Source: Elusimicrobiota bacterium (GTDB lineage Bacteria > Elusimicrobiota > Elusimicrobia > UBA1565). From it: 64,000 nucleotides of DNA. Made by a program: the position numbers and the translations under genes. The DNA lies in contig JACPXC010000046.1 in the NCBI GenBank assembly GCA_016196755.1, positions 124,001 to 188,000 on the forward strand, written 5' to 3'. The notes under the pieces are model-generated. The model was not told the origin of the DNA and made no database searches. It saw nothing but the letters and a program-made list of their open reading frames with translations. Shown here one piece after another: positions 8,976 through 13,765 of this stretch. Each line of letters starts with the position of its first letter. Position 1 is the stretch's first letter.

Positions 8976-9068
8976 CCCCGTGGGCCCAATGACGCGCGAA
9001 TGGGACCCCTTCGGCTCATGGGGCCCGTCGAAGGTGAGTTGTACCATCAGCCACTTACCGGAGGACGC

Positions 9069-11432
9069 ATGAACGAACGCCATCCCGCCTCGAAGATTTT
9101 CTCCGCCGCGTTAGCGGCCGCCCTGGCCGTCGGCCCCACGCCGCTCTGGGCCCAGATGAACGCCCGGGCCGTCTCCGCCCCGGCCGTCACCGCCGTCCCC
9201 GGCGCCGCCGGCGCCGCCTCGCTGGCCGCCCCGGCCGCCAACGTCGGCCTGACCCCCACCCTCGCCGCGCCCGGGTCGGTCCTGCCCACTCCCAGCCTCA
9301 GCGGCCTCTCGATCGTCGCCGCGAACGTCCCCGTGGCCGCCGCGCCGGCCGCCGCCGCCGCCCTTTCCGGCTCGATCGCCGGTCCGGCGGCCCAGGCCGC
9401 CGTCGGTCCCGCCGCCGCCGCCGTCGAGACTGTCACGGTCGCCGGCAAGCCGGTCCCCAACGCCTTCATCAACGGCACCTCTCCCTATAATAAGCCCCCC
9501 GCGAAGGGTCTGAGCGCCGTCCTCGGCGCGATCACGAAAAGCCTGAGCTTCGGCCGCACCTCCGCCATGTTCACGGGCGGTGCCGTCGGCTTCCGGCCCG
9601 AGGAAGCCGCGCCGCAGGACCGCGACGGCGTCCGCCTCGACCCCAAGCCCAGCCTCCCCCAGCAGACCGAGTCCCCCGGCCTGAGCTGGGACAAGGTACA
9701 GCTCCCCGGCGTCCAGCCGCGCCGCACGCTCCTCCAGCGCTTCGGCATCACGGCCTCGCCGGCCGGCCCGGTCGCGCTGCCGGGCAACCCCACTGACGCC
9801 GCCGGCGTCGAGTCCGCCCTGCGTCGCCTGATCCAGGCCACCCCCAGCGAGTACGGCGGAGTGGCCTCGGCTCAGTTGGCCACGGTCATCGCGCATAGGG
9901 TCGCCGGCCAAAGCGGCTTGGCCGACACCATCTACGTCAACTTCAAGCAGCTCCACAACGGCGTCACCGTCGACGGGACCTTCCTCGGCTTCACGGTGAA
10001 GATCATCGACGGCAAGGCCGTCGTGATCGGCTCCTCGGCCAACCTCTTCCCCTGGCTCGACGTCGACACCTTCGGCCGCTTCGACGACCGCGCCATCCTC
10101 GAGCGCGCGGCGACCCGGCTCGGCCACACCACGGCCTCGCCCGACGACTTCAACGACCAGGGCGTCAAGCTCATGCACCTCGAGGGCCAGTGGCGCGCGG
10201 TGCGCCTGATGATGTCCAAGGCCAAGACCCTGGTGGCCGCCGTCGACATCAACACCGGCCAGACCTTCGCCTGGGACGCCCGCCACAGCCTCAACGTCTC
10301 CGGCAACGTCTCGGGCCGCGCGATCGCCGACGGCCCCATCGAGTCAGGCGTCCCCTCGCCGATGGCGGTCGGCCACGTCGAGATCGTCGCGTCCAACGGC
10401 CGCAAGTACTTCGCCGACTACGAGGGCCGCTTCACGGTAGAGGGCGAGGGCGACGCGCCCGTCAAGCTGACCGTCAAGCTGTCGGGCCGCTACGCCGCGG
10501 TCTCCGACCAGGAGCGCAAGGACCTGGTCGTCACGGTGACGGCCAAGCCCGGCGAAGAGCTGCGCGTCGTCTTTAATCCCGCGGGCAAGGACGAGAACGC
10601 CCTGGCCCAGATGAACGCCTACATCCACACGACCGCGGTCCACGAGTTCCTGACCAAGCACGGCATCAGCCTCACGACGCTCGACAAGCCGATGCCCGTC
10701 AAGGTCAATATCGACGACGAGTGCAACGCCTACTACACGCCCTACAGCCCCAGCCTGAACTTCTTTAAGTCGAGCGCGCGCTGCGCGAACTCGTCCTACA
10801 ACGACGTCGCCCAGCACGAGTACGGCCACGCGCTCGACGACGCCGCCCACGGCGGCATCAAGAACGGCGGCCTGAGCGAGGCCATCGGCGACATGCTGGC
10901 CATGATGCTGACCGGCCAGCCGATCATCGGCCGCGGCTTCCTCAAGGGCGGAAACCCCGACTACATCCGCACCGGCGAGAACAAATACCAGTACCGCTCG
11001 CGCGACGAGGTCCACGCCCAGGGCCAGGCCGGCGGCGGCTTCGTCTGGAAGCTGCGCAAGTCCTTCGTCGCCGCGCTAGGCGAGGTCGAGGGCGTCGCAT
11101 TGACCAACGCCCTGATCCTGCCCGCGATCCTCGCGTCCAACCGCGACATCCCGGCGTTCATCAACTCGGTGCTCCTGCGCGACATCGGCGCCGACGGGGT
11201 CGCCCCGCACTACCAGCAGATCGCCGCCGCGGCCGCCGCGCACGGCATCAAGGTCGCCGAGCCCAAGCCGGGTCAGATCGCCCCGACCGGCGGCTACGTC
11301 CAGGCCGAGAACTGGTGGTCGCCGATCATCTCCGGCCTCTGGTCGGCGTGGCAGACCGCCGCGCAGGTCATGTCGGGTCCGCGCAACGCCCCGGCCGACG
11401 ACAAGCCGGCCAGCGGGCGCTGGGACATCTAG
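9069..11432 (+). CDS. Secreted zinc metalloprotease, thermolysin (M4)-like
   Basis: A 787-aa preproprotein starting at the ATG preceded by GGAGG (the upstream in-frame ATG at 9000 has no such site). Signal peptide at 1-28, then about 110 residues of Ala/Pro/Val-rich sequence, an FTP/PepSY-like propeptide (about 255-335), and the catalytic domain with zinc motif HEYGH at 583-587 and the downstream Glu604 in GLSEAIGD. All zinc ligands and the catalytic Glu are present. A segment around 430-500 (VEIVASNGRKYFADYEGRF) looks like an inserted beta domain. A strong terminator follows. The gene carries the CCTAGGTCCTAA motif upstream. Confidence 0.9.
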   Translation: MNERHPASKIFSAALAAALAVGPTPLWAQMNARAVSAPAVTAVPGAAGAASLAAPAANVGLTPTLAAPGSVLPTPSLSGLSIVAANVPVAAAPAAAAALSGSIAGPAAQAAVGPAAAAVETVTVAGKPVPNAFINGTSPYNKPPAKGLSAVLGAITKSLSFGRTSAMFTGGAVGFRPEEAAPQDRDGVRLDPKPSLPQQTESPGLSWDKVQLPGVQPRRTLLQRFGITASPAGPVALPGNPTDAAGVESALRRLIQATPSEYGGVASAQLATVIAHRVAGQSGLADTIYVNFKQLHNGVTVDGTFLGFTVKIIDGKAVVIGSSANLFPWLDVDTFGRFDDRAILERAATRLGHTTASPDDFNDQGVKLMHLEGQWRAVRLMMSKAKTLVAAVDINTGQTFAWDARHSLNVSGNVSGRAIADGPIESGVPSPMAVGHVEIVASNGRKYFADYEGRFTVEGEGDAPVKLTVKLSGRYAAVSDQERKDLVVTVTAKPGEELRVVFNPAGKDENALAQMNAYIHTTAVHEFLTKHGISLTTLDKPMPVKVNIDDECNAYYTPYSPSLNFFKSSARCANSSYNDVAQHEYGHALDDAAHGGIKNGGLSEAIGDMLAMMLTGQPIIGRGFLKGGNPDYIRTGENKYQYRSRDEVHAQGQAGGGFVWKLRKSFVAALGEVEGVALTNALILPAILASNRDIPAFINSVLLRDIGADGVAPHYQQIAAAAAAHGIKVAEPKPGQIAPTGGYVQAENWWSPIISGLWSAWQTAAQVMSGPRNAPADDKPASGRWDI

Positions 11433-11488: not shown

Positions 11489-11510
11489 CCCGGGCCCGAG
11501 CGCCAGTAGG

Positions 11511-11528
11511 ACTATCCGCGCGGATAGT
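11511..11528. repeat. 18-bp palindrome, left copy flanking the HNH gene
   Basis: ACTATCCGCGCGGATAGT, a perfect palindrome, identical to the copy at 12678-12695. The two copies bracket the HNH gene and mark the limits of a segment with less GC-biased codon use. Confidence 0.85.
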
Positions 11529-11578
11529 ATCCCCCTGCGCCGCGGGAACTTTTTTGCGACTTCTGCGTATATATAGAT

Positions 11579-12694
11579 ATGGAGAGCATTCCGATCGAGT
11601 TCGGGTCGTTGGCGACCACGATAAAGGGATTGGACGATGAAGCCTTGGAGCAACGGCTATCCAGGCTCACTGGGATCGAACGAAAGGCGCTTGTGCTGCT
11701 CCTCGCCCATCTAGGCGAGTTTGACGGACGTAGACTGTATGCCGACCGGGGACAACCCTCTCTGTTTGCCTACTGCGTGAGGGTCCTGGGCTACTCAGAG
11801 CAAGAGGCGTACAAGCGGATCCAAGCCGCGCGCGCGGCGAAGACCTATCCCGTTCTACTCGAACGCCTTGCCGCAGGACGACTTAGCCTGACCGGCATCG
11901 TCATTCTCGCCCCGCACCTGCGCCAAGAGAACATCGAGGAGGTCCTGTCCGCGTCCGATGGCAAGGCTACGAGAGCCCTGGAGGTCATCGCGGCAGAGCT
12001 TGCTCCAAGGCCCGACTCCCCCGATTGCATTCGGGCGCTGCCGCCCCCTAATCCTCCGCATCCTCCCGTGGGCACCAGCCCCTCGGATGCCGAAGTAGGG
12101 TCCGACACGCCGGGGGCACTCCCCTTGGCCGCGGTGAACCAAGACAAAAGGGGGACGCAGACCAGCCCGCCGTCGATCGGCTCCCGGGAAGACATCGAGC
12201 CGTTGTCCTTCCAAAGAATACTCTTTCGCTTTACCGGCAGCTCTGAGTTGCGAAGGAAGTACGACCGCGCCTTGGGGCTCGGCTTGGGACGGGCTGGCGG
12301 CCGCTCGCTGGAAGCCGCATTTGAAGAGGCGCTGGATACTTGGCTCGAAAAATCAGATCCCGAGCGGCGACACGCGCGCCGTCAGGGCGCGAGGCGCTCT
12401 ATTGCCGTACAGGAGGAAGCGGGAAAGAACAGGTCCCGCCGAATCCCCGTCGCGCTACGCGACCAGGTTTGGAACCGAGATGGGGGGCGCTGCACATATG
12501 CTGGAAAGGACGGTGATAGATGTCCAGAGACCAAGTGGCTGGAAATCGACCACGTCATCCCTTTCGCGCTAGGGGGATCCTCGAATGATCCCTCCAACCT
12601 CAGATTGAGTTGCCGCGCGCACAATCAACTCTGGGCACGCCGGATATTCGGGGAGCGGCAAGCTAGGCGGCGCAACGACTATCCGCGCGGATAG
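11579..12694 (+). CDS. HNH endonuclease with N-terminal DUF222-like helical region
   Basis: A 371-aa protein. The C-terminal HNH nuclease has Cys305 (RCTY) and Cys315 (RCPETKW), the IDHVIP core with Asp324-His325, and CRAHN at 345-349, so metal and zinc sites appear intact. The first 140 residues are helical (RLSRLTGIERKALVLLLAHL, LGYSEQEAYKRIQAARA) as in bacterial DUF222/HNH proteins. Residues 145-200 are a Pro-rich linker. There is no Shine-Dalgarno sequence. The last codons (Asp-Tyr-Pro-Arg-Gly-stop) lie inside the right palindrome. Codon use is less GC-rich than in the neighbours, consistent with transfer as a selfish or homing-type gene. Confidence 0.85.
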   Translation: MESIPIEFGSLATTIKGLDDEALEQRLSRLTGIERKALVLLLAHLGEFDGRRLYADRGQPSLFAYCVRVLGYSEQEAYKRIQAARAAKTYPVLLERLAAGRLSLTGIVILAPHLRQENIEEVLSASDGKATRALEVIAAELAPRPDSPDCIRALPPPNPPHPPVGTSPSDAEVGSDTPGALPLAAVNQDKRGTQTSPPSIGSREDIEPLSFQRILFRFTGSSELRRKYDRALGLGLGRAGGRSLEAAFEEALDTWLEKSDPERRHARRQGARRSIAVQEEAGKNRSRRIPVALRDQVWNRDGGRCTYAGKDGDRCPETKWLEIDHVIPFALGGSSNDPSNLRLSCRAHNQLWARRIFGERQARRRNDYPRG

Positions 12695-12695
12695 T
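12678..12695. repeat. 18-bp palindrome, right copy flanking the HNH gene
   Basis: Same sequence as 11511-11528. It contains the stop codon of the HNH gene and lies 9 bp before the convergent mreB stop. Confidence 0.85.
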
Positions 12696-12703
12696 TCGGC
12701 CGG

Positions 12704-13765
12704 CTATTGGCCCTTGTTGAGGGACCGGCGCAGCTTGGAGAGGTTGACCCGGCCGTTGCGCTGCATCTCGTCGAGGACTTCCAGATAGCGCCCGGTGCCG
12801 CGCGCCACGCAGGTCAGGGGGTCCTCGGCGCGCTGGACGGGCAGTTCGGTCTCCTGGCGGATGAGGTCGGGCAGGCCGCGCAGGAGGGCGCCGCCGCCGG
12901 CCACGATGATGCCGCGGTCGACGAGGTCGGCCGAGAGCTCGGCCGGGGTCTCCTCGAGGGCGTCCTTGATCATGTCGATGATGAGGTTGACCGGCTCCTT
13001 GAGGGCCCCGCGGACCTCCTCGGAGCTGATGAGGACGGTGCGCGGCAGGCCGGTGGCCTGGTCGCGGCCCTTGACCTCCATCGTCATCTCCTCCTTGAGG
13101 GGATAGACCGAGCCGATACGCAGCTTGATCTCCTCGGAGGTGGCCTCGCCGATGATGAGGTTGTGCTTGCGGCGTAAAAACTGCTGGATGGCCTCGTCGA
13201 ACTCGTCGCCGGCGATGCCGATGCACTTGGAGACCACCATGCCGCCCAGCGAGATGACGGCGGCCTCGGTGGCGCCGCCGCCGATGTCGACGATCATCGA
13301 GGCGTGCGGCTCGGAGACCGGCAGGCCCGCTCCGATGGCCGAGGCCATGGCCTCGTCGATGAGGAAGACCTCGCGCGCCCCGGCCTGCTCGGCCGACTCC
13401 TGCACGGCGCGGCGCTCGACCTCGGTGATGCCCGAGGGGACGCTTATTACGATGCGCGGGCGCAAAAGGCTCGAGCGCGCGTGCACCTTGCGGATGAAGT
13501 ATTTGATCATCTCCTGCGTGACGTAGAAGTCGGCGATGACGCCGTTCTTTAAGGGACGCACGGTGATGATCGACTCCGGCGTGCGGCCGAGCATGCGCTT
13601 GGCCTCGGTGCCGACGGCCAGCACGCGCCGCGACTCCTTGTCGAGCGCGACGACCGAGGGCTCGCGCAGGACGATGTCCTTGCCCTTCACGCAGACCAGG
13701 GTATTGGCCGTGCCGAGGTCGATACCCATGTCGTTGGAGAACATCCCGAAGATATAGTCGAGCAT
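12704..13765 (-). CDS. mreB: Rod shape-determining actin homologue MreB
   Basis: A 353-aa bacterial actin that assembles on the inner membrane and directs lateral wall synthesis. The family motifs are present: [12 protein letters not shown] (phosphate 1), [54 protein letters not shown] (phosphate 2) and [13 protein letters not shown] (adenosine). The N-terminal MLDYIFGMF is a plausible amphipathic membrane helix. AGGAG lies before the ATG. mreC/mreD are not adjacent. Downstream on the same strand is mtgA after 137 nt on the upstream side, so both belong to wall growth. Confidence 0.97.

Follow-up and report, generated by a model that had tools for sequence, protein, structure and literature searches.

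An HNH nuclease gene bracketed by identical palindromes and preceded by a promoter-like motif common to DNA-uptake genes in an Elusimicrobiota genome

In the window (the whole 64,000-nucleotide stretch of an Elusimicrobiota genome analysed here), a gene for an HNH nuclease lies between two identical copies of an 18-bp palindrome, at a site that is empty in two relatives of the same genus. Palindromes are associated with HNH genes of this family well beyond the window, and the type of palindrome goes with the type of protein. We read the HNH gene and its cognate palindrome as a mobile or homing-like unit that would act during competence, with the palindrome as the cognate recognition site, and we give this reading, which is built on sequence comparison, a probability of about one half.

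The bracketed gene and its chromosomal site

The palindrome ACTATCCGCGCGGATAGT is present without a mismatch at 11511–11528 and again at 12678–12695, and the two copies flank the HNH nuclease gene (11579–12694, plus strand), which encodes 371 amino acids with a weakly DUF222-like N-terminal region and a C-terminal HNH domain. These are the only matches to the 18-mer at three or fewer mismatches in the 64 kb, where shuffled sequence gives a mean of 0.01. The left copy lies 50 bp 5' of the HNH start codon, and between them is a promoter-like element, GGGAACTTTTTTGCGACTTCTGCGTA (11544–11569, plus strand), that ends 9 nt 5' of the ATG; the right copy supplies the codons for D-Y-P-R-G and the TAG stop of the gene. 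The direct repeat is 19 nt long when the preceding G is included, and a search for a further repeat outside the palindromes of this unit found none. The proposed inserted unit would therefore comprise palindrome, promoter, HNH gene and palindrome, from 11510 to 12695 on the plus strand (about 1.19 kb). It is flanked on the left by a metalloprotease-like gene (9000–11432, plus strand) and on the right by a gene at 12704–13765 (minus strand), with its stop codon 9 bp away from the right palindrome; following the sequence-only reading, we take these neighbours to be a metalloprotease gene and mreB. GC3 is 0.70 in the HNH gene, compared with 0.95 in mreB and 0.94 in the metalloprotease gene. The exact pair of palindromes, the right copy as the last five codons and stop, and the less GC-biased codons between them had all been remarked on in the sequence-only reading, and all three are borne out.

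The encoded protein matches the Pfam HNH model PF01844 with 23.1 bits (curated cut-off 21.4), and the Pfam search of this protein gave HNH models only, with neither Y1_Tnp nor any other transposase domain. In an alignment of 33 sequences D324, H325 and Cys 305, 315 and 345 are invariant and N340 and H348 are nearly so, in agreement with the earlier remark that the HNH residues are intact. DUF222 matches (E up to 1) are found in 14 of these 33 family members, the best with an E of 1.7e-4, and the window protein itself has none at E up to 1. The window HNH family is, as judged from such comparisons, probably a divergent branch related to the DUF222-HNH repeats. Comparison by sequence with solved structures gave weak matches, of which the best (E 0.036) is the HNH of Cas9, and an AlphaFold2 prediction from two sequences has a mean pLDDT of 41.9. 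An RNA-guided HNH nuclease of the IscB/Cas9 kind was considered and rejected, since IscB scored 24.5 bits against a cut-off of 175 and aligned with the HNH region alone. A phage or plasmid gene was likewise rejected, since there were no matches at 1e-10 in the plasmid and phage collections; matches in viral contigs are confined to the HNH domain. Relatives were found in 44 of the 57 genomes, with 0 to 13 matches per genome among the matches listed; the closest to the window gene by score among the matches listed (L078, 59% identity) is in G017, a genome of another family, and the single named relative found is from an Elusimicrobia metagenome bin. Two copies elsewhere in the window's own genome (G000) may be mentioned here. 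L010 (C14:119866–120678), about 3.3 kb to the left of the window start, is a second HNH relative that is degenerate, with one internal stop, and has a TGCGTTTAAACGCA palindrome upstream. L009 (C57:22652–23668) lies directly 5' of a gene that by eye looks like rpmH, and its position is therefore possibly near the replication origin.

The metalloprotease gene is also next to mreB in two genomes of the same genus, G001 and G002 (blocks of 90–92% and 82–83% nucleotide identity). In both of them (2/2) the junction between these genes contains no HNH gene and no family palindrome; it consists of a terminator and small hairpin repeats in G001 and of about 30 bp in G002. Since both junctions are empty, the HNH unit either was inserted in the window lineage or was lost in both relatives, and insertion would be the simpler course. 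The sequence-only reading had suggested a mobile unit, with which the two empty sites agree, as do the recurrence of bracketing elsewhere and the correspondence between palindrome type and HNH type (below), and the finding that it had said would speak against this, an HNH gene here in all relatives without palindromes, was not made, as the gene is absent where the junction was found. Its expectation that an empty site would retain one palindrome failed, as neither junction has any.

Palindromes and a promoter-like motif at HNH genes

We surveyed 68 distinct HNH genes (79 loci with a usable frame minus 11 duplicates), drawn from matches that were high-ranked or hand-picked, among the matches listed. 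HNH genes with no single usable open frame, such as a G005 gene split by a run of Ns, fall outside this set, and two loci that lack the 5' part were left out of the palindrome survey; start codons were chosen by script, and those of L006, L040, L127, L130 and L133 are probably not the true ones. Flanking intervals were long enough upstream of 67 and downstream of 66 of the 68 genes. A palindrome scoring 9 or more lies upstream of 32 of the 67 genes, compared with 8 of 700 flank intervals and 3 of 332 in-gene intervals; downstream, 6 of 66 genes have one. For most HNH genes the palindrome is confined to one side, and about half of all the HNH genes lack one that scores high enough; this counts against a mobile unit.

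The palindromes vary widely between HNH clades and agree within clades that span families f1 and f2. Between genomes, half-site similarity correlates with HNH protein identity (Mantel r 0.42, 0 of 2000 permutations, 1008 pairs), a test that is independent of the palindrome classes, which were labelled on the HNH tree by eye. In pairs such as L009–L127, L099–L127 and L127–L178 the cores match at 17–18 of 18 positions and the flanks are near background (random identity level 0.40, s.d. 0.06). Some pairs do have common flanks (L139–L142, for example), and these are explained by common descent. Other HNH relatives carry palindromes of the ACCTCC and TTATCCAC types, and a further HNH-linked form, TCACTTTC-N6-GAAAGTGA, has a six-base spacer. 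The strict motif TTATCCACA, which we take to be the DnaA box consensus, has 10 occurrences in the 12.8 kb that precede HNH genes, mostly as outer arms of long palindromes, and none in 131 kb of control sequence. Palindromes of about 38–44 bp with TTATCCAC or TTATCCACA as outer arms and variable centres were seen upstream of L084, L088, L098 and L160 and in the coding end of L164.

Bracketing of the kind seen in the window was examined in the 52 genes that have an upstream palindrome scoring at least 6 and enough downstream sequence. Five of them (the window gene L001, L047, L078, L080 and L102) have their own palindrome again near the 3' end with two or fewer mismatches, whereas mismatched palindromes gave no such case in 1695 comparisons and came closest in a single one, with three mismatches. 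L078, in an order-level relative, has ACTATCCTCAAGGATAGT on the left and ACTCTCCTCAAGGATAGT on the right, both with the odd centre TCAA; DSPQG-stop is read from the right copy, in the same phase as DYPRG-stop in the window. The right-hand palindrome of L102, which belongs to a different clade, also encodes the C-terminus. As judged from asymmetric centres that give the orientation, L078 and L102 have direct end repeats and L080 has inverted ones. A unit in G005 has CCGG-centred palindromes at both ends in the same phase as in the window; its HNH match lies in two frames around the run of Ns, and an earlier stop precedes the right palindrome. The right bracket copy of G003 is contained in a repeat of about 290 bp that is present many times in that genome, so it may be a chance neighbour.

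The motif GGAAC-n16/17-CGTA precedes 59 of the 68 HNH genes, often ending about 9 nt 5' of the start, and its halves may be read as -35 and -10 elements. GGGAACN{15,16}GCGTA occurs at 47 places in the window's own genome, the copy at 11544–11569 among them, compared with 3 in the control. Downstream genes were read for 44 of these places, the other three being HNH genes by position. The motif precedes genes for proteins with Competence (PF03772), Mg_chelatase and DZR_2 domains, SSB proteins, a tyrosine recombinase, toxin-antitoxin proteins and five HNH genes; the Mg_chelatase protein is presumably ComM, and the DZR_2 protein, which also has a sub-threshold phosphoribosyltransferase match, presumably ComF. 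Ten RAYT-like genes (seven Y1_Tnp by Pfam and three judged by eye) also lie behind the motif, and none of the ten has a palindrome (scores of 6 or less). From this company of genes we infer that GGGAAC-n15/16-GCGTA is the promoter of a competence regulon. As it is common to ComEC-, ComM-, ComF-, SSB- and RAYT-like genes, expression of the HNH genes during DNA uptake is likely, and the mobile genes seem to have recruited the DNA-uptake programme.

The palindrome might accordingly be thought a regulator of this whole regulon, a candidate that we rejected since the ComEC-, ComM-, ComF- and RAYT-like genes have the motif and no palindrome; its absence from the RAYT-type genes in particular argues that it is not a general regulon mark. 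A narrower version is that it is an operator, occupied by a dimer of the HNH protein (or of a linked regulator) that keeps its own competence-type promoter repressed, the solo copies being a small regulon or chance leftovers. The palindromes do keep to the 150 bp or so next to the start codon, some of them upstream of the promoter motif and others between the motif and the ATG, and palindrome type does follow protein type. In addition, three family palindromes precede the same promoter before toxin-antitoxin genes with no HNH gene (L013, L015 and L019, at G000 C10:8719, C4:10722 and C28:185304), which also counts against a mobile unit. An operator need not recur at the 3' end, yet those 5 of 52 genes have a second copy of their own palindrome there, some in the coding end; moreover, its position relative to the promoter varies, and most solo copies in the window's own genome do not adjoin this promoter. 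We consider the operator unlikely.

Dispersed copies of the palindromes

The 18-mer ACTATCCGCGCGGATAGT has four exact copies in the 4.59-Mb genome G000, and the degenerate family to which it belongs, ACTnTCCnCGnGGAnAGT / ACTNTCCNCGNGGANAGT, has 22 exact places there and 38 with at most one mismatch (reversed control, 0). The 18-mer is a repeat, but an HNH-linked one, which disposes of the other counter-case raised in advance, a common repeat with no link to HNH genes. This first family is found in 17 of the 57 genomes, the window's own included, at 75 listed places (two more in G049 are outside this tally), of which 67 are fully symmetric, though the pattern does not require two of the pairs to be symmetric. 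One variant per genome tends to hold (14/14 alike in G003, 5/5 in G005 and 7/7 in G014), and between genomes each free position takes all four bases; in G014 the unusual CCGG centre of the HNH-linked copy is found alike in two solo copies. At least 7 of the 75 places lie within 250 bp of an HNH gene (in G000, G003, G005 and G041). A second family, ACCTCCANNNNTGGAGGT, was found at 18 places, distributed over 8 of the 57 genomes (control, 1); five of these places precede an HNH gene by about 280 bp or less.

A good many solo palindromes are embedded in larger dispersed repeats (in G003, G005 and part of G000) and so may have spread as passengers. This counts against a mobile unit, and some at least of the solo copies were indeed spread by other means. 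In a search of G001 and G002 with eight flank pairs, several of which were aligned, some solo sites proved to align with other sequence of similar length; these relatives are too diverged for solo sites to be demonstrable as clean 18-bp insertions. At several places in G000 (for example L014, L017, L020, L025 and L126) family palindromes were seen in the spacer between REP-like inverted repeats, GTGCACGCTTCGCGCACGG. The palindromes might then be passive REP- or MITE-like repeats moved by other machinery, such as RAYT-like transposases, with HNH genes in the same variable spots. This idea draws on the REP-like hairpin repeat that by eye adjoins 15 of the 38 G000 sites on one or both sides, on the approximately 290 bp of flank common to most G003 copies, and on the at least seven Y1 transposases with the same promoter. 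It is nevertheless improbable, as palindrome type follows the HNH tree even between families, cores stay conserved beside flanks that do not, and no such palindrome is found near the RAYT-type genes that have this promoter. Finally, a domesticated competence nuclease that acts on incoming DNA, with the palindrome protecting or marking self DNA, would suit the promoter held in common with ComEC-, ComM-, ComF- and SSB-like genes and the relatives in 44 of 57 genomes (among the matches listed), but is very improbable, as the variable copy number (0 to 13 matches per genome, among the matches listed), divergent paralogues and empty site in close relatives point to selfish rather than housekeeping behaviour.

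Proposed mechanism and comparison with known systems

In the mobile or homing-like unit that we favour, the encoded protein most likely has the palindrome as its cognate recognition site; the palindrome would also mark the unit boundaries, and its symmetry suggests that the protein probably binds it as a dimer. We infer from the arrangement of the sequences the following steps of binding, cutting, transfer and excision. The nuclease would be made when the DNA-uptake genes are on, and would introduce nicks or cuts at cognate palindromes. A solo palindrome would then receive a copy of the unit, by repair or by annealing through the palindromes, and this would give the direct repeat at both ends. 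The same repair or annealing, or recombination between the two copies, would delete the unit and leave one palindrome. Target duplication on entry together with deletion between the copies would explain both the matching ends and the solo copies. Whether the HNH family and its cognate perfect palindromes amount to a separate mobile class, with the palindrome as target and boundary, specificity that differs clade by clade and a host competence promoter, is a more tentative matter, for which we would put the chances somewhat short of even; no system of this kind was described in the literature searched, which comprised no preprints and few subscription papers. If true, this would be an HNH-based counterpart to the RAYT-REP partnership, mobile nucleases would be tied to the competence programme with the spread of a selfish unit timed to DNA uptake, and the family would offer a natural series of nuclease-palindrome pairs with a specificity that could be deduced from sequence.

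A homing gene normally interrupts its own recognition site. As with free-standing homing endonucleases (WHO/HO), for which we draw on part of PMC7282813, the nuclease could spread through target cutting and repair copying, and there are empty and filled sites. The unit differs in having an intact palindrome at each end and empty sites without a palindrome, and a classical homing gene was rejected because the site is not interrupted and the empty alleles in G001 and G002 have no intact site. Insertion sequences and MITEs are similar in that short repeats form the bounds and empty sites exist; the present unit differs in having no transposase and no separate target duplication that we could see, and an insertion sequence was rejected on the lack of a transposase domain and of any repeat outside the palindromes. 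Integron attC sites, which lie next to an integrase, have offset core sites and an extrahelical base and are not perfect palindromes, whereas those of the window are perfect. Neither cognate palindromes nor a competence-type promoter are known to us for REP13E12 of Mycobacterium. The likeness to that DUF222-HNH element lies in the repeated HNH genes (PMC10589994, in the part drawn on here).

RAYT, REP and REPIN systems combine a Y1 transposase with dispersed imperfect palindromes, and, as far as the part of PMC3116915 used here describes them, they resemble the present one in that an enzyme gene stands beside its own palindrome type, the types differ with each enzyme copy, and solo copies are dispersed. 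Palindromes of the enzyme-flanking type are dispersed here too, at the 22 exact family places, and the enzyme has no Y1_Tnp domain, being an HNH nuclease rather than a Y1 HUH transposase; a RAYT system proper was rejected on this ground. Further differences are that the palindromes are near-perfect, may occur at both ends with the right one in the coding end, and number tens of copies rather than hundreds, and that the RAYT-like genes of the same genome are without them. By analogy, then, the HNH-palindrome system is one that would work most like RAYT-REPIN, with a different enzyme.
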